Below are positions 11,876-62,677 of a DNA stretch of 64,000 bases, piece by piece. Location: contig NZ_CP093397.1 of NCBI RefSeq assembly GCF_029027585.1, positions 1,415,405 through 1,479,404 of the forward strand, given 5' to 3'. The stretch's first letter is position 1. Each line of letters starts with the position of its first letter. The notes under the pieces are model-generated. The model was not told the origin of the DNA. It did not search any database and worked only from the letters and a program-made list of their open reading frames with translations. The stretch is from Sulfurimonas sp. Its GTDB lineage: Bacteria; Campylobacterota; Campylobacteria; Campylobacterales; Sulfurimonadaceae. Made by a program: the position numbers and the translations under genes.

Positions 11876-12979
11876 TTAACTTCCAATACTTTGAATTATT
11901 ATTTTTTTATACTTGTCTAAAGATTTTTTTAAAGTAAATTTCTTAGATATCTCAAACATTTTTTTTGCAAGAGTAACTTTTTTATTTTTATCTTTTAAGA
12001 TATTTAAGATATTTTTACTTAAACACGCTACATCATTAATTTTACAAAGATTTGTTCCTTTTTCATCTAAAATTTCATTATACCCCTCGAACTTATAGGA
12101 GATTACCGCCGTATTAGCACTCATAGCTTCCAATAAAATATTAGGAAACCCTTCATAATAAGAAGCAAAAACAAATAATTCACATTCATGTAAATAATCA
12201 TAAGGTAATCGTACTTCGCCTAGAAGATGAACCCGTTTGGATAAGTTTAATTCTAAAATTTTGTTTTCAAGGACTTCTCTTAGTTCACCTTCACCTATTA
12301 TAATTAAGTTGTGTTCAATTTTATCTGCAATTTTCTCAAAAGCAAGTATTATGTCCAATTGACCTTTTTGTGGATGTAGTCGTCCAATATTTAAAATATA
12401 TTTTTCACTTATCTTTTTATAATATTTTTCTACTTTATCTACACCATTATACACAGTTTGTAACTTAGGTTTTAATTTAGCATCTAAGTCAGAAATCTCA
12501 TTAGAAATATAATTACTTACACAGATTATTTTATCCGCTAATGGATAGTATTTTATCATCATATCTTTGTATTCATCAAAGCTGAAAAGATGAATTTTTT
12601 TAGCTTTCATACTCTCAAAAACTGCTCTTTGGCTTACGATTTTTTTGCATTTATAGCTTGTTTTTAGAGATATGATATTGCTGTATTCTCCAAATGAAAA
12701 AATTAGAATAGGTTTTATTTTATCTATGATTTTATTAAGTTTTTTTACTCTATATTCTAGTAAAAACGAGGCAGTACTTGGCTTAGATACATCTACTTTA
12801 ATAGTTTTTATCATTTTTATTGTAATACCATTATTTAAGTGATAGGCTACTTTTTTATCATTTTCTGATAAAACAATAAAAATAGAATAGTCTTTATACA
12901 GATAGTTTGCTAGATTTGAAACAACTTTTTGTATGCCACCTGTTTCTAAGTTTTGGGTAAATAGGATTATATTTTTCAT
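11876..12979 (-). CDS. GT4-family glycosyltransferase
   Basis: 367 residues from the ATG at 12979, which overlaps the upstream stop as ATGA; the longer form starting at 13042 reads through the neighbour's end and is unlikely. GT-B fold: N-terminal TGGIQKVV loop near 12-19, C-terminal NIGRLHPQKGQ and IGEGELRE, and the EGFPNILLEAMSA motif containing the family EX7E pair. It would move a sugar from a nucleotide donor to a growing glycan. Donor and acceptor are unknown. Confidence 0.87.
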   Translation of the reverse strand: MKNIILFTQNLETGGIQKVVSNLANYLYKDYSIFIVLSENDKKVAYHLNNGITIKMIKTIKVDVSKPSTASFLLEYRVKKLNKIIDKIKPILIFSFGEYSNIISLKTSYKCKKIVSQRAVFESMKAKKIHLFSFDEYKDMMIKYYPLADKIICVSNYISNEISDLDAKLKPKLQTVYNGVDKVEKYYKKISEKYILNIGRLHPQKGQLDIILAFEKIADKIEHNLIIIGEGELREVLENKILELNLSKRVHLLGEVRLPYDYLHECELFVFASYYEGFPNILLEAMSANTAVISYKFEGYNEILDEKGTNLCKINDVACLSKNILNILKDKNKKVTLAKKMFEISKKFTLKKSLDKYKKIIIQSIGS

Positions 12980-13731
12980 AGCTTTTTCGCTACTAGAAAA
13001 AAGTTTGGTGTAAACTCTTTTAGTTTTATTAGATCTAAGCATAATCCAATAATATTATTTATTGTAAACATAATTAAGAGTATTGGTAAAAAAATAGTAT
13101 TTCTAAGTATTTTATATTTACTTGCTAGGTTCCAAATAAAACCGTTTAACATAGATACTATAGCTGTTCCAAAATAACCTTGATAATGGAACTCTAAAAT
13201 CTCAAAGTCATACTTTTTACATAGCTCCTTTAACCCATATTCACTAAATCTAAAAAAGTCATATGGAGTAGCATGGGCTTGATATATAAATGGTACGGAA
13301 AGAATGAGTATTCCACCCTTTTTAAGAACTCTTTGCACCTCACATAGTGCTTTATATGGCTCATCAATATGCTCTAACACTTGCGTCAAAATAACACTAT
13401 CAATGGAGTTACTATCAAATGGTAGGCTTTTTATATCTGCATCTATAAATTTTTCTTTTGAAGTTTGAAACATATGTTGGTGAATTTCACTTTTATCAAC
13501 TGCAATATATTTGTCTACATGTGGCAATATTAATTTTTTATATATTGCATTACCTGAACCAATATCTGTACATATACCATTTAAATATGGTAACGATTTG
13601 ATAAAAGAATTATGAAGATGCTTATGATTTAAATATCCCATATTTGATATATATATATATGGTGCTTTATTTTCACCTGTTAAAATGGGTATGAGCTTAT
13701 GTGAAATATAATCCATAACTTTCTTGATCAT
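12976..13731 (-). CDS. SAM methyltransferase (Methyltransf_11 type)
   Basis: 251 residues. CTDIGSGNAIY near 34-44 is the SAM loop and VLTQVLEHIDEP near 112-123 the post-motif II stretch. The C-terminal 55 residues include a hydrophobic run (IFLPILLIMFTINNIIGLC) that could contact the membrane. Overlaps its neighbours by 4 bases at its 3' end and 1 base at its 5' end, so the genes are coupled. Substrate unknown. Confidence 0.82.
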   Translation of the reverse strand: MIKKVMDYISHKLIPILTGENKAPYIYISNMGYLNHKHLHNSFIKSLPYLNGICTDIGSGNAIYKKLILPHVDKYIAVDKSEIHQHMFQTSKEKFIDADIKSLPFDSNSIDSVILTQVLEHIDEPYKALCEVQRVLKKGGILILSVPFIYQAHATPYDFFRFSEYGLKELCKKYDFEILEFHYQGYFGTAIVSMLNGFIWNLASKYKILRNTIFLPILLIMFTINNIIGLCLDLIKLKEFTPNFFLVAKKL

Positions 13732-14717
13732 TAGATTTTTATACCTCTTCCTTCACATCCATTATATCCCATATGTACATCAATATCTTTATATCCAAGT
13801 TCTTCAAACCATCTTTTAAATGTTTCTATCCTTACAGGGTTATCATACATAGGTGAAAGCATATCAAACAAATCCATTACCGCCCATTGTTTCAGTTTGT
13901 CTTGTGATAGTCCTGTCGAAGTATAATCTGGTACTAGTAATCTCCAGTTAATTCTATTCGCTCTTTTTGCAGAAAATAATTTTCTATTTAATTTAAATAT
14001 AGGCCACATTATTTTAACATGTTGCTTACACCACCAATATAATAATTTATGATTTAACCTCTTGGTAATTGGTCTTACCCAATATTTAGTATGAAACCAT
14101 GTTGTACTTAAAAAAGGATAGTTATCAGCAGCTATTTTACCTTCACTTTTTAGTTTAGTAGTTAATGACTTTAGTGCTTCTCTTGAGTCAGGAGTATGTT
14201 GTAGTACTCCAAAACAATAAATTTTATCTGCAATATCATTTTTAAAAGGCATATTATAAATATCAGCTTGAACAATTAATACATTTTCTTTGTCACTGTG
14301 ATGCTGATAACTAGCTTCAACAGCACTGCTATAATCAAAAGAGAGTACCATAGCCCCAGTATTTGCTGCAAATTGAGTAAATCTACCTGCTCCACATCCT
14401 GCTTCAATAATAACTTCACCTTTTAGGCTCTCGCCCCACTTTGTTTCATTTTTAAATCTTTCTTCAGAAGAATTCACACTACTAAATTTATCATGTTGAT
14501 CACTATGGTGGATATTCCATTGCATACCAAAGCTGTCTGCATAGTTTGTCATAGGTACAAATCTTGGGATATAGTTGATTATAGGATAATTACTACTACA
14601 ATTTACACAAGTAAGAGTTCCACTTATTACCTTATCCCCTTTTTCGATTATATTTTGATATTCTAAGTTACTATTGCATTTAATACAAATCAGATAATCT
14701 ATGTATTTTTTATTCAT
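13731..14717 (-). CDS. SAM methyltransferase with zinc ribbon
   Basis: 328 residues. The zinc ribbon uses C11, C14, C37 and C40; the SAM loop VIIEAGCGAGRFTQF lies at about 99-113, and CFGVLQHTPD near 168 follows. The C-terminal third is long and basic, as in methyltransferases acting on complex glycan or lipid-linked substrates. It is one of at least five methyltransferases in this island, pointing to a heavily methylated glycan. Confidence 0.82.
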   Translation of the reverse strand: MNKKYIDYLICIKCNSNLEYQNIIEKGDKVISGTLTCVNCSSNYPIINYIPRFVPMTNYADSFGMQWNIHHSDQHDKFSSVNSSEERFKNETKWGESLKGEVIIEAGCGAGRFTQFAANTGAMVLSFDYSSAVEASYQHHSDKENVLIVQADIYNMPFKNDIADKIYCFGVLQHTPDSREALKSLTTKLKSEGKIAADNYPFLSTTWFHTKYWVRPITKRLNHKLLYWWCKQHVKIMWPIFKLNRKLFSAKRANRINWRLLVPDYTSTGLSQDKLKQWAVMDLFDMLSPMYDNPVRIETFKRWFEELGYKDIDVHMGYNGCEGRGIKI

Positions 14718-52787: not shown

Positions 52788-53055
52788 TTGACAAGCCTCT
52801 TAATCATTAATTTTTAAAGACTTTTTAAAACATAGGTTATATAAAAGCTTACATTACTAATTTTAAATCACTCATTTTTATAGAGATTATCTAAAACTAT
52901 TTACCAATACAATCAATATTATAATTTTTCCATAAACCACATTTTTAAAAAATTGCACTTATTTTTAGAATGGGGGGGGATTGTATATTTTTTAATCATA
53001 TAACTGTATGAAGTATGTGTGCTAAGCGATATAATAATTCCATAAAACATATTAT
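52788..53055. other. Intergenic region upstream of guanidine operon, with G8 tract
   Basis: About 270 bases with no credible gene. The notable feature is an uninterrupted run of eight G at 52972-52979, rare in such AT-rich DNA, about 50 bases before the operon's -10 box. The part next to tRNA-Leu is T-rich and may hold the terminator of the tRNA cluster, but no strong hairpin is visible. Confidence 0.6.
53030..53035 (+). promoter_or_regulatory. Promoter -10 of guanidine operon
   Basis: TATAAT at 53030-53035 with start expected near 53042, just ahead of the riboswitch P1 strand at 53056. No good -35; an AT-rich upstream region and the G8 tract precede it. Confidence 0.6.
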
Positions 53056-53189
53056 GAGGTTGAATACCTTACAACTATTAATGGATAACTAGGGTTCCGA
53101 TGAATTAATTTCATGTCTGGTCCGAGAGTTATCAACCTCTTGAGTAGAGGTCACACGGAGGGATAAAAACCCGGGAGGGTATCAACCTC
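53056..53189 (+). promoter_or_regulatory. Guanidine-I riboswitch (ykkC-yxkD leader)
   Basis: The conserved blocks of the class are all present in order: ACTAGGGTTCCG (53088-53099), TCTGGTCCGAGAG (53116-53128), then after a hairpin CACACGGAGGGATAAAA (53152-53168) and CCCGGGAGG (53170-53178). The P1 stem is GAGGTTGAATACC (53056-53068) with GGTATCAACCTC (53178-53189), one bulged A. The inner hairpin is ACCTCT/AGAGGT with loop TGAGT. The aptamer senses guanidinium. It ends about 25 bases before the AGGAG of the first gene; no intrinsic terminator follows, so control of translation is more likely than of termination. Confidence 0.93.
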
Positions 53190-53226
53190 TTGGTATGTTT
53201 ATCTTAAATCTACTCAGGAGTTCTTT

Positions 53227-54294
53227 ATGAAACTTTTTTTTAAATTAACCTCAAAATTATTAGTTGCCACTGCATTAGTTAGTACGCTTGGTTCATCATT
53301 TCTTATGGCACAAACAAAGGATAAGTTTCAAGTAGCTTGGACTATATATGTTGGCTGGATGCCTTGGGGTTATGCTGAAAATCAGAGTATCGTTGATAAA
53401 TGGGCTGAAAAATATGGCATAGAAATTGAAATGGTTCAAGTAAATGACTACATAGAATCTATCAATCAATATACAACTGGTCAATTTGATGCTTGCGTAA
53501 TGACAAATATGGATGCACTAACTATCCCTGCAGCAGGTGGAGTTGACTCTTCTGTTCTTATTATGGGTGATTTTTCTAACGGAAATGACGGTGTAATTTT
53601 AAAAGACAAAAAAACTTTTAGTGATATTAAAGGTCAAACTGTAAACCTTGTTGAACTTTCTGTTTCTCATTATCTTTTGGCACGTGGACTTGAGTCTGTT
53701 GGTATGAATGAAAGGGATGTTAAAGTTATGAATACTTCGGATGCTGATATTATTGCAGCATTTACTTCAGATGAAGTGACAGCAGTTACAACATGGAACC
53801 CTCAACTTAATGAACTATCAGCTATGAAGAATGCAAATCTTGTATTTGATTCTAGCAAAATCCCAGGAGAAATTATTGATATGCTTGTTGTTCATACGGA
53901 CACTTTAAATGATAATCCAAAACTAGCTAAAGCATTAACTGGTGCTTGGTTTGAAGTTATGGCACTAATGAAAAAAGGGGATAAGGAAGCATTAGAGTTT
54001 ATGGCACAATCTTCAGGAACAGACCTAGCAGGATATAAAAGCCAATTAGATTCGACTATGATGTTTTATGATGCTAGTGATGCATTAAAGTTTGCACTAA
54101 GTTCAGATCTTATAGCAACTATGAAAAAAGTAAGTGAATTTTCATTCAAGCATGGAATACTTGGTGATGGTGCACCCGATGCAAACTTCATAGGTATGGA
54201 GTTTCCAAATTCTAAAACATTAGGTGATACAAACAACATAAAACTTCGTTTTGTAGATACATATGTGAAGATGGCTAATGAACGGAAACTCTAA
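53227..54294 (+). CDS. ABC importer, periplasmic binding protein (NitT/TauT type)
   Basis: 355 residues. A signal peptide covers about 1-28 (ending SSFLMAQ). The rest is an NMT1/SsuA-like binding protein: VAWTIYVGWMPWGYAEN, QFDACVMTNMDAL and TTWNPQLNEL are family-type stretches. It would bind substrate in the periplasm; its operon and the guanidine riboswitch argue for guanidine or a guanidine-releasing compound. AGGAG lies before the ATG (53216-53220). The binding residues for the cation cannot be named from sequence. Confidence 0.9.
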   Translation: MKLFFKLTSKLLVATALVSTLGSSFLMAQTKDKFQVAWTIYVGWMPWGYAENQSIVDKWAEKYGIEIEMVQVNDYIESINQYTTGQFDACVMTNMDALTIPAAGGVDSSVLIMGDFSNGNDGVILKDKKTFSDIKGQTVNLVELSVSHYLLARGLESVGMNERDVKVMNTSDADIIAAFTSDEVTAVTTWNPQLNELSAMKNANLVFDSSKIPGEIIDMLVVHTDTLNDNPKLAKALTGAWFEVMALMKKGDKEALEFMAQSSGTDLAGYKSQLDSTMMFYDASDALKFALSSDLIATMKKVSEFSFKHGILGDGAPDANFIGMEFPNSKTLGDTNNIKLRFVDTYVKMANERKL

Positions 54295-54302
54295 GGTTCC
54301 CT

Positions 54303-55127
54303 ATGAAACGACTTATGAATAAAAAGCCATCAAAACTTGGTTCATTATATTTAGGACTGCTACCATTTATTTTGGTAGTAGTAGTTTATTTATTTACTTC
54401 TAATGCAAGACTTGCAGATAATCCAAATGATAAACTATTACCTTCTTTGTCAAGTTTCTCATTGGCTATAGACAGGATGGCATTTACACCTAGTAAACGC
54501 ACAGGTGAAATACTATTTGTTCAAGATACAGCCTCTTCTCTAGAACGACTTGGACTTGGAATATTTATTAGTGGTGTATTGGCACTTTTGATGGCTATCC
54601 CTTTAGGATTAATTCCATATGTACATTCAGGACTCTCACCTTTTGTTGCAGCATTTTCAATGGTGCCCCCAATGGCTGTATTACCTATTTTATTCATTGT
54701 TTTTGGAATGGGTGAGATGGCTAAAGTAGCTCTGATTGTGATTGGGGTGACACCCATTTTAGTGCGGGACTTACAACAACGAGTCAGTGAGATACCAGTT
54801 GAACAACTTATAAAAGCACAGACATTAGGAGCTTCAAGTTGGACAATAGTTTTACGTGTAATCTTACCTCAAATAATACCAAGGCTTCTTGATGGGATAA
54901 GAATAACTCTAGGTACAGCTTGGATATTTTTAATCTCTGCTGAAGCAATTGCTGCAACTGAAGGCCTTGGTTATCGTATATTTTTAGTACGTCGTTATCT
55001 TGCTATGGATATTATTCTTCCGTATGTAGTATGGATAACATTCTTAGCATTTTTGTTTGATTACTTACTGAAAAAGGCAACATATAAGATGTTCCCTTGG
55101 TACGAAGTTGGAAAGGAAACTAAATGA
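54303..55127 (+). CDS. ABC importer, permease
   Basis: 274 residues, about six membrane helices, BPD_transp_1 family. The coupling-helix loop that contacts the ATPase is LIKAQTLGASSWTIVLRVILP near 175-195 (key EAA-type residues A, G). Starts 8 bases after the binding protein and overlaps the ATPase gene as ATGA. Inner-membrane half of the predicted guanidine importer. Confidence 0.92.
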   Translation: MKRLMNKKPSKLGSLYLGLLPFILVVVVYLFTSNARLADNPNDKLLPSLSSFSLAIDRMAFTPSKRTGEILFVQDTASSLERLGLGIFISGVLALLMAIPLGLIPYVHSGLSPFVAAFSMVPPMAVLPILFIVFGMGEMAKVALIVIGVTPILVRDLQQRVSEIPVEQLIKAQTLGASSWTIVLRVILPQIIPRLLDGIRITLGTAWIFLISAEAIAATEGLGYRIFLVRRYLAMDIILPYVVWITFLAFLFDYLLKKATYKMFPWYEVGKETK

Positions 55128-55903
55128 GCCTAGTAACTATTAAAAAATTAGATAAAGCATACGGAGATAATCTAGTACTAGAAAAGATTAGTATAGATAT
55201 ACAAGAGGGTGAGTTTTGTACACTCGTTGGACCTTCTGGATGTGGAAAGACAACATTTTTAAAAATGTTACTTGGTCAAGAAACACCTACAAGAGGCACA
55301 TTCTTACTTGAAGGAAAGCCTTTCCCGAGTGAACCTGGAGTAGAGAGAGGTATTGTATTTCAGAAATACTCTGTCTTTGCACACCTTAGTGTTTTAGAAA
55401 ATGTGATGCTAGGTATTGAGCTTGGAGAGTCAAAGTTTTTTGGAAAGCTCTTTGGTAAAGCAAGAGCTAAAGCAAAAGAGACAGCTATGGAGATGCTTAA
55501 ATCAGTAGGTATCGCAGGTTCGGCAAACAAATATCCAAGTGAGCTCTCAGGAGGTATGCAACAGAGACTCTCAGTAGCACAATCTCTTGTGAAAAAGCCA
55601 AAAATATTACTACTTGATGAGCCCTTTGGAGCACTAGATCCTGGTATTAGAGCTGATATGCATGAGTTGATACTTGATTTGTGGAGAAAGAATAACCTGA
55701 CTATTGTCATGGTCACACATGATTTAAATGAGAGTTTTTATCTAGGAACAAGGCTCTTGGTCTTTGATAAAGTTTATACAGATCCTAGATTCCCAAATGC
55801 TTATGGTGCAAAGATTACATATGACATCCCTGTAGGCGATGAGCGAGAAGTTCTTAAAAAAAATAGACAAATCAATCAATTAAGGAGAAAAAGTGATTAT
55901 TGA
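55124..55903 (+). CDS. ABC importer, ATPase
   Basis: 259 residues. Walker A GPSGCGKTTF near 38-47, signature LSGGMQQRLSVAQ near 143-155, Walker B ILLLDEPFGALD near 163-174 and the switch His in MVTHDLNE. A loop after FAHLSVLENVMLG is longer than usual (KFFGKLFGKARAKAKE). Powers the importer. Its end overlaps the next gene by 11 bases. Confidence 0.93.
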   Translation: MSLVTIKKLDKAYGDNLVLEKISIDIQEGEFCTLVGPSGCGKTTFLKMLLGQETPTRGTFLLEGKPFPSEPGVERGIVFQKYSVFAHLSVLENVMLGIELGESKFFGKLFGKARAKAKETAMEMLKSVGIAGSANKYPSELSGGMQQRLSVAQSLVKKPKILLLDEPFGALDPGIRADMHELILDLWRKNNLTIVMVTHDLNESFYLGTRLLVFDKVYTDPRFPNAYGAKITYDIPVGDEREVLKKNRQINQLRRKSDY

Positions 55904-56630
55904 ACAGACAAAAATAAAACCAGAAAATATACTCTTAGAAGAGATACTACCCGGTGGCGCTAAATGGTCGAAAATAATTCGCCGTGGAGATAAGATACGT
56001 ATTAGTAGTAAAGATGGATTAGCTTCCATTTCAGCAATGTTTTACAATGCTGATAATACAGCAGAGCGTTTTAACTCTGCAGACACTATAAAAGTGCAAC
56101 ATAATGCTTTTTTTACTAAAGGACAATCTCTTTACTCAGAGCTAGGCCGTGTACTTTTATCTATTACCGATGAGACTACAGGAGGTCTTTTTGATGTAAT
56201 TACAGGAATTAGTAATCCTAGAATTTTAAAAGAGAACTTTGGTGATGGCGTTTATTGTGACTTAGGAAATCGCTACTATAAAAGTGATCGTGAAAATTTT
56301 TTAATAGAGCTTGGAAAATACGGCATGGGTAAACGCGATATGGTACAAGCAATCAACTTTTTTAGAAGAGTAGATGTAGTTGATGGAAATAAACTAGAGC
56401 TATCTTCTAACCGTGGAGATGCTGGCAGCTATATAGATTTACGTGCTGAGATGAATGTACTTCTTGTACTTTCTAATACACCTCATGTTATGGAAAAAGG
56501 TGAGTACAATCCAAGTGATATAGAACTTACACTCTATAAAGGATCTCGTATAACAGAAGATGACCTTTGCAGACAGTTTAGTCCACAATCACAGCGTGCA
56601 TTTATAAATAATGACCGCTACTTTGCTTAA
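55893..56630 (+). CDS. Urea-carboxylase-associated protein 1; carboxyguanidine deiminase subunit
   Basis: 245 residues of DUF1989, UAAP1 type, from a GTG start with AAGGAG before it. Family stretches are LPGGAKWSKIIRRGDKIRI, SAMFYNADNTAERFNSADT and GSYIDLRAEMNVLLVLSNTPH. UAAP1 and UAAP2 are known to form the zinc enzyme CgdAB that removes ammonia from carboxyguanidine to give allophanate. Unlike UAAP2 it has only two Cys and lacks the CGNHD/GGHC set, so it is likely the non-catalytic partner (inference). Confidence 0.88.
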   Translation: MIIEQTKIKPENILLEEILPGGAKWSKIIRRGDKIRISSKDGLASISAMFYNADNTAERFNSADTIKVQHNAFFTKGQSLYSELGRVLLSITDETTGGLFDVITGISNPRILKENFGDGVYCDLGNRYYKSDRENFLIELGKYGMGKRDMVQAINFFRRVDVVDGNKLELSSNRGDAGSYIDLRAEMNVLLVLSNTPHVMEKGEYNPSDIELTLYKGSRITEDDLCRQFSPQSQRAFINNDRYFA

Positions 56631-56639
56631 GGAGAAAAA

Positions 56640-57260
56640 ATGACCAAAAATATTGAAAATGCAATTTATAATGAAAAAATCTCAGCAGGTGTACCTTGGA
56701 GTTATATTGTAAAAAAAGGACAAACTCTTCGTATTATTGACCTTGAAGGATGTCAAGCAGTTGATACACTTTTTTATAATGCAAATAATCATGAAGAACG
56801 CTATTCAGCTAACGATACAGTAAGAGAACAAGGAAGTATCTTTGTTACAACAGGGACAAAACTTATCTCTACTGATGATAATGTAATGATGGAAGTAATT
56901 GGAGATACTTGTGGAAACCACGATACTCTTGGGGGACACTGTAGTGCCGAGAGTAATACAGTGAGATACGCACTTGATAGAAAGTATATGCATAGTTGTC
57001 GTGATAATTATCTTTATGAAATTGGTGAGTTAGAGATGGATCCTAAAGATTTAACTAACAACATAAACTTTTTTATGAATGTACCTGTTAAAGAAGATGG
57101 TCATCTTATTATTGTTGATGGTATATCAAAACCAGGTGATTATATCGATATGAAAGCTGAGATGGATATTTTGGTATTAGTGTCAAACTGTCCGCAGTTA
57201 AACAACCCTTGTAATGCTTACAATCCTACTCCTGTTCAAATGGTTATTTGGGAAGACTAA
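56640..57260 (+). CDS. Urea-carboxylase-associated protein 2; carboxyguanidine deiminase subunit
   Basis: 206 residues of DUF1989, UAAP2 type. VPWSYIVKKGQTLRIIDLEG and CQAVDTLFYNANNHEERYSA open the fold; GDTCGNHDTLGGHCSAESN and HSCRDNYL carry the Cys/His residues likely to hold zinc. Pairs with UAAP1 9 bases upstream as carboxyguanidine deiminase. AAGGAGAAAAA precedes the ATG. The gene is followed by the second riboswitch rather than running straight into the carboxylase. Confidence 0.9.
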   Translation: MTKNIENAIYNEKISAGVPWSYIVKKGQTLRIIDLEGCQAVDTLFYNANNHEERYSANDTVREQGSIFVTTGTKLISTDDNVMMEVIGDTCGNHDTLGGHCSAESNTVRYALDRKYMHSCRDNYLYEIGELEMDPKDLTNNINFFMNVPVKEDGHLIIVDGISKPGDYIDMKAEMDILVLVSNCPQLNNPCNAYNPTPVQMVIWED

Positions 57261-57276
57261 GCGTATACTTTTTATT

Positions 57277-57324
57277 TTATAGGACGACCTATAAGATGTA
57301 AGTTTGTGGGACGACCCAAGCAAA
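57277..57324 (+). promoter_or_regulatory. Guanidine-II riboswitch (mini-ykkC), inside operon
   Basis: Two hairpins with ACGA loops, the hallmark of the class: TTATAGG-ACGA-CCTATAA (57277-57294) and TTTGTGGG-ACGA-CCC followed by CAAA (57303-57324, small bulge). The closing base pairs are G-C next to each loop, as required for guanidinium binding by the paired loops. It ends ten bases before TGAGGATT, the ribosome-binding site of the carboxylase, so translation control is likely. Confidence 0.9.
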
Positions 57325-57346
57325 TTATAGTTATGAGGATTCATAG

Positions 57347-60300
57347 ATGTTTTCAAAAGTGTTAATAGCAAATCGCGGTGAGATTGCTTGTCGTGTTATT
57401 AAAACCCTAAAAAAAATGGGTATATCATCAGTGGCTGTTTATACAGCTGCCGATACAGATTCATTGCATGTAAGTTTGGCTGATGAGGCTTTTTATATTG
57501 GTGAAGGTCTGGCAAGGGAGAGTTATTTAGATATCAATAAGATTTTAAGAATCGCTAAACAAAGTGGTGTAGAAGCTATACACCCTGGATATGGTTTTTT
57601 AAGTGAAAATGCCGTATTTTCACAAGAGTGTGAGGCTAATGGGATTACTTTTATAGGCCCAAGAGTCGAACATATGCAAAAGTTTGGGCTTAAACATACT
57701 GCCCGTGAACTCGCAGAGATAAGTAATGTACCATTACTCCCTGGTTCATCTCTACTCAAAGACTTAGATGAAGCAATAAAAGAAGCTAGAAAAATTACTT
57801 ATCCTCTTATGTTAAAGAGTACAGCTGGTGGTGGTGGTATTGGAATGCAACTCTGTTATGATGAAGCACAACTTTGTGATTCTTATGAATCAGTAAAACG
57901 CCTCAGCGAAAATAACTTCTCAGATGGTGGTATGTTCTTAGAAAAATATGTAGTAGCTGCTCGTCATATAGAAGTGCAGGTTTTTGGTGATGGTAAAGGG
58001 CATGTTGCAGTTTTAGGTGACCGTGACTGTTCTGTTCAAAGACGCAATCAAAAGGTGATAGAAGAGACTCCTGCAGTCGGCATCAGTGATGAGATAAGAG
58101 AGGCTCTTTATAAAACAGCTAAAGATCTTACCTCTTCAGTAAATTACCTCTCAGTCGGAACAGTTGAATATGTTTATGATACTACAAGCGATGAGTTTTA
58201 TTTTCTTGAAGTAAATACAAGATTACAGGTTGAACATGGTATTACCGAAGAGGTGAGCGGTGTTGATTTAGTAAAATGGATGATACTTCAAGCATATGGT
58301 GATAACCCTGAACTTTATGAGTATAAACATATGCTAGCAGGACATTCAATTGAAGTTCGTGTGTATGCAGAAGATCCATCTAAAAACTTTCAACCAAGTT
58401 CAGGAATTCTTACAAATGTAGAGTTTCCTGGTGATATTCGCTGTGATACATTTATAGAAACTGGTCTCGAAGTGTCAGCATTTTATGATCCTATGATTGC
58501 AAAGTTAATTGTCAAAGGTGAAAACCGCGGGGATGCTTTGAAGAAAATCTCTCAAGCAATTAATGAGACAAGAATAGATGGAATTGAGACAAACTTGAAA
58601 TATCTTGGTGCAATTGTTGAGTCTGATGTATTTCAAAACGCAACGCAGACAACAAAGTATCTAGACAATTTTCTTTTTTCTGCAAACTCTATAGATGTAC
58701 TTCGTCCGGGAACTCAAACAACCATTCAAGATTCTGAGGGTAGAACAGGATACTGGAATATTGGTGTACCACCATCAGGTGCATTTGATGCTTTTTCTTT
58801 TTCGTATGCTAACAAAATACTGGGTAATACTAAAGATGCTTCAGGATTTGAGATAGTTATTTCAGGACCATCTCTGCGTTTTAATTGTGATTGTGCTATT
58901 GCTTTATGTGGTGCAGATATAGATGCATACTTAGATGGAAACATCATCACCATGAACAGAGCTATTGAAGTAAAAGCAGGCAGCGTACTTAAGCTTAAAA
59001 AAGTTAGTAATCAAGGCTTTAGAACATATCTTGGAATTCGTGGTGGTTTGGATGTCCCTGAGTATTTAGGAAGTCGTGCTACATTTGAACTTGGTAAGTT
59101 TGGTGGTCATGCAGGACGTAGTCTTATTTCAGGTGATGTTATTAATATTGCCAATATGATTGATTCTGATGTAAGTAATAAAAATATAACACCTTTTAGA
59201 GCACTAGAAAATGAGTGGGAAATAGGTGTACTCTATGGTCCTCATGGCGCACCTGACTTTTTTACAGACTCTGACATTAAGACTTTTTTTGATACCTCAT
59301 GGGAGATTCATTACAACTCCAATCGTACAGGTATTCGTCTCATAGGTCCAAAACCTGAGTGGGCAAGAACAGATGGTGGCGAAGCAGGACTTCACCCATC
59401 TAACATTCATGATAATGCTTATGCAATCGGTGCTGTAAATTTTACAGGTGATATGCCAGTTATACTTGGCCCTGATGGTCCAAGTTTGGGTGGTTTTGTC
59501 TGTCCGGTAACAATAGTAAGTGCGGAACTTTGGAAAATGGGTCAGCTTCGTGCAGGTGATAAAGTTAAATTTGTGCTAATAGAGCATGAAAGTGCAAAAA
59601 TGATGATAGATGCACAGGAAGAAGCTCTCGAATCTTTAACTACTTATGATGAGAGAGAATTTCTCTCAAGTAAGCCTATAGGCTCACCGATTATTTACAG
59701 TGATGAAGCTAAAGATAATGTGCCTTCAATAGTATTTCGTCAATCAGGTGATTGTAACTTACTTGTAGAGTATGGTGAGATAGAACTTGATATTGACCTT
59801 CGTTTTAGAGTCCATGTTCTCATGGAAGCTTTGAATGAATCTAATATAGCAGGAATCATTGATATTACTCCAGGTATCCGCTCTTTACAAGTTCATTTTA
59901 ATCCTAAAGTGTGTGAGCGTTTAGCATTAATAAAGAAATTAAAAGAGATAGAACTTACACTTCCTTGTATAGATGATATTAATATCTCAACTCGTGTCGT
60001 TCACCTTCCTCTTTCGTGGGATGATGAGTCAACACGTGTGGCGATTGACAAGTATATGAAAACAGTGCGTCCTGATGCTCCTTGGTGCCCGAGTAACATT
60101 GAATTTATTCGCCGTATTAATGGATTAGAGAGCACTGAAGAGGTTAAAAAAATCGTATTTGGTGCAAGTTATCTTGTAATGGGACTTGGAGATGTTTACC
60201 TAGGCGCTCCTGTTGCAACTCCACTTGATCCTAGACATAGACTTGTAACAACAAAATACAATCCAGCACGTACATGGACACCTGAAAATGCAGTGGGTAT

Positions 60301-60949
60301 TGGTGGGGCATATATGTGTGTATATGGTATGGAAGGACCTGGTGGTTACCAGTTTGTTGGACGTACTGTACAGATGTGGAACCGTTATCATCAAACAGAA
60401 GATTTTCATGAGGGTAAACCTTGGTTACTGAACTTCTTTGATCAGATAAAATTTTATGAGGTAAGCTCAGATGAACTTCATAAGATGCGTGAAGATTTTC
60501 CAAGAGGTCGTTTTAAGCTTAAGATTGAAGAGAATACCTTTAATCTCAAAGAGTACAAAGAGTTTCTAAAAGAAAATGATTTATCGATAAAAGAGTTTAA
60601 GCAGACTCAGCAAAAAGCTTTTGATGAAGAACGTAATATGTGGGAAGATACAGGTATTGCTAACTTTAGTATGGAGAGCGGTGAAGTTTTACAAGAGAGA
60701 ATGGAAGTTATAGAACTAGGTGCAGATGTAGAAGCTGTAGAATCTCCTATTCAAGGAAGCATGTGGAAAGTTCTTGTAAAACTCGGTGATGTTGTAGAAG
60801 AGGGCGAAGTACTTGCTATAGCAGAGTCTATGAAAATGGAAGTTGATATAGAAGCACCTGAACATGGAAAAATAGCAAAAATTTTGTGTAGTGAAGGTGA
60901 AAATATTAGTGCGGGTAAAATACTATTTATCATTGAACAAATAATTTAA
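57347..60949 (+). CDS. Biotin-dependent guanidine carboxylase (urea carboxylase family)
   Basis: 1200 residues. Biotin carboxylase domain about 1-445 (FSKVLIANRGEIACRVI, ATP-grasp loop STAGGGGIGMQ, EVNTRLQVEH). Carboxyltransferase halves: AHS2/KipA-like about 475-770, with GLHPSNIHDNAYAIG in its C-terminal part, and AHS1/KipI-like about 795-1015, the latter with NPARTWTPENAVGIGG. Biotin carrier domain about 1130-1200 with the biotinyl Lys K1163 in ESMKM. Enzymes of this family placed with UAAP genes and guanidine riboswitches carboxylate guanidine rather than urea; an Asn/Asp active-site difference is reported to tell the two apart, but I cannot number it here. No allophanate hydrolase domain is fused. 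Confidence 0.92.
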   Translation: MFSKVLIANRGEIACRVIKTLKKMGISSVAVYTAADTDSLHVSLADEAFYIGEGLARESYLDINKILRIAKQSGVEAIHPGYGFLSENAVFSQECEANGITFIGPRVEHMQKFGLKHTARELAEISNVPLLPGSSLLKDLDEAIKEARKITYPLMLKSTAGGGGIGMQLCYDEAQLCDSYESVKRLSENNFSDGGMFLEKYVVAARHIEVQVFGDGKGHVAVLGDRDCSVQRRNQKVIEETPAVGISDEIREALYKTAKDLTSSVNYLSVGTVEYVYDTTSDEFYFLEVNTRLQVEHGITEEVSGVDLVKWMILQAYGDNPELYEYKHMLAGHSIEVRVYAEDPSKNFQPSSGILTNVEFPGDIRCDTFIETGLEVSAFYDPMIAKLIVKGENRGDALKKISQAINETRIDGIETNLKYLGAIVESDVFQNATQTTKYLDNFLFSANSIDVLRPGTQTTIQDSEGRTGYWNIGVPPSGAFDAFSFSYANKILGNTKDASGFEIVISGPSLRFNCDCAIALCGADIDAYLDGNIITMNRAIEVKAGSVLKLKKVSNQGFRTYLGIRGGLDVPEYLGSRATFELGKFGGHAGRSLISGDVINIANMIDSDVSNKNITPFRALENEWEIGVLYGPHGAPDFFTDSDIKTFFDTSWEIHYNSNRTGIRLIGPKPEWARTDGGEAGLHPSNIHDNAYAIGAVNFTGDMPVILGPDGPSLGGFVCPVTIVSAELWKMGQLRAGDKVKFVLIEHESAKMMIDAQEEALESLTTYDEREFLSSKPIGSPIIYSDEAKDNVPSIVFRQSGDCNLLVEYGEIELDIDLRFRVHVLMEALNESNIAGIIDITPGIRSLQVHFNPKVCERLALIKKLKEIELTLPCIDDINISTRVVHLPLSWDDESTRVAIDKYMKTVRPDAPWCPSNIEFIRRINGLESTEEVKKIVFGASYLVMGLGDVYLGAPVATPLDPRHRLVTTKYNPARTWTPENAVGIGGAYMCVYGMEGPGGYQFVGRTVQMWNRYHQTEDFHEGKPWLLNFFDQIKFYEVSSDELHKMREDFPRGRFKLKIEENTFNLKEYKEFLKENDLSIKEFKQTQQKAFDEERNMWEDTGIANFSMESGEVLQERMEVIELGADVEAVESPIQGSMWKVLVKLGDVVEEGEVLAIAESMKMEVDIEAPEHGKIAKILCSEGENISAGKILFIIEQII

Positions 60950-60962
60950 TAAAGGAAATCTA

Positions 60963-61001
60963 GTGAGAATATCAGATTTAAAAAAACAGTTATATAAATA
61001 A
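60963..61001 (+). other. Detached N-terminus of allophanate hydrolase
   Basis: GTG at 60963 with AAGGAAAT before it starts VRISDLKK and stops at 60999-61001. If one A is removed from the seven-A run 60980-60986, it reads ISDLKNSYINKTLTPREL and continues in the hydrolase frame, matching the usual family beginning (DLxxxY...LTPRE). This is strong evidence for a 1-base insertion. Confidence 0.7.
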
Positions 61002-61020
61002 AACACTAACTCCAAGAGAG

Positions 61021-62298
61021 TTGATGAAACAGATAAAAGAACGTATTAAAGCTAATATAGATAACCCAATTTGGCTTTATACATTAAGTGATGATGAGTT
61101 AGAGATATACTTAAAGAGATTAGAAGAATGTGATGTATTGTCACTTCCTCTTTATGGAATTCCTTTTGCAATAAAAGATAATATCGATTTAAAAGATATT
61201 CCAACTACGGCTGCTTGTCCTGATTATAGTTATCTGCCAAGTGAATCTGCTTATGTGGTGAAAAAACTGATAGAAGCTGGAGCTATTCCTGTTGGAAAGA
61301 CTAATTTAGATCAGTTCGCAACAGGACTTGTAGGCACACGCTCACCTTACGGTGTTTGTAAAAATAGTATTAATCCTGAGTATATATCTGGAGGATCTAG
61401 TTCAGGGAGTGCTGTGAGTGTAGCTCTTGATATGGCAGTATTCTCACTTGGAACAGACACTGCCGGTTCAGGTCGTGTACCTGCGGCATTTAACAATCTT
61501 GTAGGATTAAAACCATCAAAGGGAGTTCTTAGTACATCAGGAGTTGTTCCTGCATGTCGTAGTTTAGATTGTGTATCTATTTTTGCAAATGATACAAAAG
61601 ATGCAAGAATTGTATTTGATATAGCTGCATCATTTGATAAGAGTGACCCATACAGTAGAAAGATGCCTACTGTAGATAATAGTGCACTACTGAGCTTCAC
61701 ATTTGGAGTGCCTAAAAAAGAGCAGTTGGTATTTTTTGGGGATGATGCAGCTAAAGAACTTTTTTATCAATCAGTTGAGTCTTTTAAGGCAATGGGTGGT
61801 GTTTTAGTTGAGGTGGACTTTACACCTATGCTAGAAGCGGCAAATTTACTTTACTATGGTCCATGGGTAACGGAGCGATATGTTGCTGTAAAAGATATGA
61901 TTGAAAACAGACCAGATAGTTTTATAGAAGTGACAAAGAATATTATTTTATCAGGTAAGACAAAAAGTGCTGAAGATTATTTTAATGCAGAGTACAAACT
62001 CAAAGCATATAAACGCCAAGCAGATATGCTCATGGCAGATATTGATTTCGCATTGACACCTACAACAGGAACTATTTATAAAATAGATGAGGTAATTGTT
62101 GAGCCTATACAGCTAAATACAAATCTAGGTTACTATACAAACTTTATGAATTTATTAGATTTTTCAGCATATGCTGTACCAGCAGGTTTTAGAGAAAATG
62201 GACTTCCATTTGGTGTGACACTTTTTTCAGACGCTTTTGATGATAGAAAACTGATGCTCCTTGGTGAAAAATATATGCAAATAAGTTCATATGAGTGA
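61021..62298 (+). CDS. atzF: Allophanate hydrolase, amidase domain
   Basis: 425 residues as open here, from TTG 61021 or ATG 61024; the natural start is more likely GTG 60963 (see the detached N-terminus). Amidase-signature fold: catalytic Lys K52 in FAIKDNIDL, GGSSSGS at 124-130 and nucleophile Ser S150 in DTAGSGR. It splits allophanate to ammonia and CO2, the last step of the guanidine route. Full-length homologues are about 600 residues and include a C-terminal domain that here is a separate reading frame. Confidence 0.9.
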   Translation: MMKQIKERIKANIDNPIWLYTLSDDELEIYLKRLEECDVLSLPLYGIPFAIKDNIDLKDIPTTAACPDYSYLPSESAYVVKKLIEAGAIPVGKTNLDQFATGLVGTRSPYGVCKNSINPEYISGGSSSGSAVSVALDMAVFSLGTDTAGSGRVPAAFNNLVGLKPSKGVLSTSGVVPACRSLDCVSIFANDTKDARIVFDIAASFDKSDPYSRKMPTVDNSALLSFTFGVPKKEQLVFFGDDAAKELFYQSVESFKAMGGVLVEVDFTPMLEAANLLYYGPWVTERYVAVKDMIENRPDSFIEVTKNIILSGKTKSAEDYFNAEYKLKAYKRQADMLMADIDFALTPTTGTIYKIDEVIVEPIQLNTNLGYYTNFMNLLDFSAYAVPAGFRENGLPFGVTLFSDAFDDRKLMLLGEKYMQISSYE

Positions 62299-62677
62299 GT
62301 TTATAGAACTTGCAGTATGTGGTGCACATATGAGTGGACTTCCACTCAATTATCAGTTGAGAGAACTTGGAGCTACATTTGTTAAGTCTACATTCACAGC
62401 TAAAGGTTACAGACTTTTTAATGTGCCAGAAAAAACACCTTCTCGTCCAGGAATGCTACGTGATGCTAGTAGTGAATATTTTATGGAGCTTGAAGTATGG
62501 AGTATTCCATTGGACAATTTTGGAGCATTTATGATTCAGATAGCTTCACCTTTGTGTATAGGGAGTGTAATATTAGAAGATGAAAGTTCAGTCTATGGTT
62601 TTTTATGTGAGAGTGATTACCTTAGAGATGCACAAGAGATTAGTTCTTACGGTGGTTGGAGAGCCTATCTAACCTGA
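62291..62677 (+). CDS. Allophanate hydrolase C-terminal domain as separate gene
   Basis: 128 residues starting MSEFIELAVCGAHMSGLPLNYQL, followed by the YRLFNVPEKTPSRPGMLRD stretch and IASPLCIGSVILED: all typical of the C-terminal domain of the allophanate hydrolase family, normally in the same chain. The start overlaps the end of the amidase gene by 8 bases in another frame (ATGAGTGA). It could be a true split with translational coupling or a 1-base frameshift. Confidence 0.85.
   Translation: MSEFIELAVCGAHMSGLPLNYQLRELGATFVKSTFTAKGYRLFNVPEKTPSRPGMLRDASSEYFMELEVWSIPLDNFGAFMIQIASPLCIGSVILEDESSVYGFLCESDYLRDAQEISSYGGWRAYLT

Follow-up and report, generated by a model that had tools for sequence, protein, structure and literature searches.

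We propose, at a probability of about 85%, that the 64-kb stretch of Sulfurimonas sp. DNA analysed here (the window) contains a guanidine-assimilation operon, comprising an importer, carboxyguanidine deiminase, guanidine carboxylase and allophanate hydrolase, whose single transcript carries two guanidine riboswitches, both of the ON type: a guanidine-I element that would open the first gene, and a guanidine-II element that would raise translation of the guanidine carboxylase gene (gca). Ligand binding in Sulfurimonas sp., the ON direction and the single transcript are presumed in this reading. Rfam matches and gene order bear out a first-pass annotation of the same DNA, which had placed two different classes of guanidine riboswitch in one operon and the second where it could act separately on the carboxylase; control of the guanidine carboxylase apart from import and deimination is supported by this position. 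The annotation had also taken the layout to be unusual, and here it was mistaken, as the layout has been published (PMC12186494, PMC12508155). The arrangement is real and conserved, yet already described in other bacteria.

Genes of the proposed guanidine-assimilation operon

All genes of the operon lie on the + strand. The first (53227-54294) encodes the substrate-binding protein of a putative guanidine/'urea' ABC importer (TIGR03427, 544 bits, cut-off 334), and it is followed by genes for an ABC transporter permease (54303-55127) and an ABC transporter ATP-binding protein (55124-55903). UAAP1 (55893-56630; TIGR03425, 267 bits, cut-off 206) and UAAP2 (56640-57260; TIGR03424, 342 bits, cut-off 285) are the carboxyguanidine deiminase subunits CgdA and CgdB. 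The 1200-aa urea carboxylase family protein encoded at 57347-60949, the presumed product of gca, was assigned from TIGR02712 (1877 bits, cut-off 1304) and its Pfam domains, and downstream lie the amidase part of allophanate hydrolase (61021-62298; TIGR02713, PF01425) and, as a separate gene, the allophanate hydrolase C-terminal domain (62291-62677; PF21986). Carboxylase, CgdA/B, allophanate hydrolase and ABC importer are found together, as in a guanidine carboxylase operon. Although the family model is named for urea carboxylase, CgdA/B and the riboswitches point to guanidine, not urea, as the substrate of the carboxylase.

The split of allophanate hydrolase (61021-62677) into an amidase gene and a C-terminal-domain gene, with an 8-base overlap, recurs in most mapped Campylobacterales operons. 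The start of the hydrolase (60963-61024) seems to be out of frame: a GTG at 60963 and the lead-in NKTLTPRELMKQ stand in different frames, separated by an A-run. An error, a genuine change and frameshifting are all possible.

The guanidine-II element upstream of gca

Between UAAP2 and the carboxylase gene, where the first-pass annotation had described a guanidine-II (mini-ykkC) element with two ACGA-loop hairpins, positions 57276-57318 of the + strand match RF01068 with 31.5 bits (E 9e-5 in a scan of 301 bases against all of Rfam), and a genome-wide RF01068 search returned the element as the sole match in the 2.6-Mb genome (E 1.8e-4). P1 (57276-57283/57288-57295) and P2 (57307-57310/57315-57318) are joined by a linker and each carries an ACGA loop; in both, the tetraloop is of the ACGR type and closed by G-C pairs, as expected of RF01068 members, and the predicted fold is two hairpins (z -2.8). 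The two GGACGACC hairpins (57282-57289 and 57309-57316) account for both occurrences of GGACGRCC in the window, where 0.08 would be expected and none of 100 shuffles reached two. Among 22 elements from across the order the stems covary, with 95.1% of cells paired and 85 double-change cells, a result seen in 0 of 500 shuffles, and slid-alignment controls for the same 22 elements fell far below the true pairing.

The window's copy shares with the RF01068 family the two hairpins with ACGR loops ahead of a start codon, but lies 0.5 bit under the gathering cut-off of 32 bits because of its A+U-rich P1 and short linker. An Rfam scan at the gathering threshold misses the element and an E-value scan recovers it. 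The first-pass annotation would have counted a score below the family threshold against the element. The score is indeed half a bit too low, but we do not take this as a refutation because copies at the corresponding position in two same-genus genomes reach 32.0 and 32.4 bits, and those of other relatives up to 41.2 bits. From its sequence, then, we identify 57276-57318 as a guanidine-II element, the half-bit shortfall being outweighed by loops, covariation and placement.

The element precedes the urea/guanidine carboxylase gene near its ribosome-binding site, GAGGA at 57335-57339 (+ strand). The gap from the conserved P2 to GAGGA is 16 nt, or about 8 nt if a window-specific extension of P2 is counted, and not the ten bases given before.

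According to the accepted guanidine-II model, a kissing interaction frees the ribosome-binding site via an anti-Shine-Dalgarno linker (PMC9094411). By analogy with the family, from which both the ON direction and the translational action are inferred, guanidine would cause the P1 and P2 loops to kiss and gca translation to rise. The sugE leaders of relatives have a pyrimidine-rich linker of the anti-Shine-Dalgarno type, which neither the window's guanidine-II nor the other gca leaders have, and across 26 leaders we found no segment consistently complementary to the Shine-Dalgarno sequence. Two candidates for such a partner were rejected. The 3' arm of the window's P1 could pair with the carboxylase Shine-Dalgarno, with one bulge, but this would be about 8 kcal/mol worse than P1, and the leaders show no consistent partner. 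A third hairpin 5' of P1 has a 3' arm that pairs no better than shuffled arms. Many relatives (loci L049, L050, L055, L077 and others) do have a small hairpin ending 2-4 bases before P1, and it is weak in the window.

The guanidine-I leader and the first Shine-Dalgarno region

The upstream leader had been called guanidine-I, and a covariance-model match confirms it: a guanidine-I aptamer at 53078-53179 (+ strand) matches RF00442 over its full length, with 89.5 bits against a cut-off of 63, and is the single copy in the genome. A run of eight G lies about 100 bases upstream of it (52972-52979). G tracts of this kind can cause phase variation in Campylobacterota.

One strand of the guanidine-I P2 stem-loop, CUCUUGAGUAGA (53137-53148), is complementary at 12 of 12 positions, with one G-U pair, to UCUACUCAGGAG (53209-53220), a segment ending with the Shine-Dalgarno of the substrate-binding-protein gene. 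Within the 64 kb, the + strand has no other such match. Relatives change both sides of the helix together (UGAGUA/UACUCA, UAAAUA/UAUUUA and UGAAUA/UAUUCA). With the 12-mer positioned by the best match in each species, 95.8% of cells were paired and 15 were double-change cells (12 distinct strand pairs; 0 of 500 shuffles), and every slid control was far lower; seven of the 12 pairs showed no double-sided change. Thermodynamic prediction of the ligand-free fold has the helix closed, and the Shine-Dalgarno region sequestered, with pair probabilities of 0.91-1.0, and puts the cost of an open site at 8.5 kcal/mol. The same predicted fold includes a hairpin over the 3' end of the aptamer, followed by a poor U-tract (53171-53193, + strand).

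No terminator with a good U-tract was found after guanidine-I, either in the window or in most guanidine-II-bearing relatives; a weak one, which sequence alone might not reveal, may still be present in the window's guanidine-I. When set against RF00442, its expression platform looks translational rather than terminator-based. Without ligand, the P2 strand would pair over 12 nt with the Shine-Dalgarno region of the first gene, and folding of the ligand-bound aptamer would free the start site. Because a proper terminator is lacking and the 12-bp Shine-Dalgarno helix covaries, both guanidine switches probably act on translation here.

Relation to known two-switch operons

The two-class layout has been described in a review for Raoultella terrigena, Erwinia rhapontici and Klebsiella michiganensis, in which guanidine-I acts on the importer and deiminase genes and guanidine-II on those for carboxylase and allophanate hydrolase (PMC12186494); these bacteria belong to a different phylum from that of the window. 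In Vreelandella (Halomonas) boliviensis, likewise, a guanidine-I precedes the operon, a guanidine-II lies between cgdB and gca, and the importer and pathway genes are the same; there both RNAs bind ligand, guanidine-I with a Kd of about 44 uM and guanidine-II with Kds of about 93 uM for guanidine and 83 uM for methylguanidine (PMC12508155). In that work guanidine-I is presumed to act through a terminator, and mgdH and mgdL lie between gca and atzF (PMC12508155). The window differs from V. boliviensis in lacking both a canonical terminator and the mgd genes, and in having a Shine-Dalgarno helix that covaries and an allophanate hydrolase divided between two genes.

Our literature search returned no report of a terminator-less guanidine-I that pairs with a Shine-Dalgarno sequence, a result that is not proof of absence. 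A guanidine-I that is likely translational is the window's own feature relative to known two-switch operons. At slightly short of even odds, we would extend this to Campylobacterales as a model in which both riboswitches act translationally on a single long mRNA, the guanidine-I P2 stem-loop pairing directly with the first Shine-Dalgarno and guanidine-II standing before gca, with possibly different ligand ranges (guanidine versus guanidine plus methylguanidine).

Pantoea and Serratia plasmids also have the two-class layout, and there a strong terminator follows guanidine-I. One Serratia plasmid (L142:2338-3505) carries two equally scoring guanidine-I copies separated by about 1.07 kb. A repeated small gene precedes or follows each of them, and the arrangement looks like a duplication.

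Alternative readings of the second switch

The guanidine-II element might respond to methylguanidine or another related ligand as well, in which case the two switches would gate different compounds. We consider this rather unlikely. In V. boliviensis, the guanidine-II at the corresponding position showed equal binding of guanidine and methylguanidine, and guanidine-I bound only guanidine (PMC12508155), but in the window gca is followed directly by the hydrolase, without the intervening mgdH and mgdL of V. boliviensis, and the guanidine-II loops are of the ordinary ACGA type.

Less probable still is that guanidine-II mainly serves a second transcript, started from an internal promoter just upstream, from which carboxylase and hydrolase would be made without the importer. 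The first-pass annotation had suggested an internal start here, and a TATACT box is present at 57264-57269; by eye, TAAAAT-like boxes stand at about the same distance in relatives with guanidine-II before sugE. However, the + strand has no -35 partner or scored sigma-70-type site there, and other species with the same layout do not conserve the box at that place, many having a small hairpin instead. The upstream genes are also tightly packed, and no terminator was found just before gca. We therefore set the internal promoter aside, as relatives give it no conserved support.

That the two hairpins are a chance occurrence or a decayed remnant with no function, as a score just below the curated cut-off might suggest, is very improbable given covariation unmatched in 500 shuffles, a place and spacing kept across genera, and two intact loops.

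Distribution among Campylobacterales

A search for both classes in 299 genomes of the order Campylobacterales found guanidine-II in 25 and guanidine-I in 16. Fifteen of these 16 have both classes on one strand, at a distance of about 3 to 6 kb, and the sixteenth has a guanidine-II of 29.3 bits in the right gap. In every mapped guanidine-I locus of this sample, guanidine-II immediately precedes the carboxylase, and the same was seen in separately fetched loci; among named loci, the two-switch layout is present in Sulfurimonas, Sulfurospirillum, Arcobacter-like and Poseidonibacter, among others. In three genomes, an additional guanidine-II copy precedes cgdA. Where guanidine-II-only genomes were mapped, the element precedes a 105-aa gene, which proved to be sugE in both cases tested. 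Outside the order, one Chromatiales genome has guanidine-II before gca, and several alphaproteobacteria have candidates, some of them weak, before cgdA instead.

Six Campylobacterales guanidine-I loci are without guanidine-II: five are Sulfuricurvum by name or layout, and one is a 'Campylobacterales bacterium'. We considered the rule that a guanidine-I acting on translation governs the first gene alone, which would call for a second switch. Sulfuricurvum, with a guanidine-I terminator and no guanidine-II, fits this rule within Campylobacterales, but counts as a single event because it is one lineage. The rule fails in Pantoea and Serratia, which combine a terminator-type guanidine-I with guanidine-II; a translational guanidine-I is therefore no general explanation for the second switch.

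Some relatives carry additions. Three loci (L053, L055 and L056) have two guanidine-I elements separated by 1.6 kb. The first precedes another gene, which in L053 has a weak match to Opr-family porins, and the second precedes the importer. Extra genes occur inside relatives' two-switch operons (L049:6689-8495 and 12196-13928), among them fatty-acid-desaturase-like, metallo-beta-lactamase-fold lactonase-like, xylose-isomerase-like TIM barrel and EamA transporter genes, and these are perhaps routes for substituted guanidines.

These data add sulfur-oxidising Campylobacterales to the Enterobacterales and halomonads already known to have the two-class guanidine switch; within the order, and leaving aside the Sulfuricurvum lineage, the switch is a constant feature of the guanidine-I operons sampled. 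Why a single ligand should be sensed twice per transcript could be studied in this operon as a compact natural system, since variants are available among its relatives: some have two guanidine-I elements, some an additional guanidine-II before cgdA, and some a terminator-type guanidine-I but no guanidine-II.
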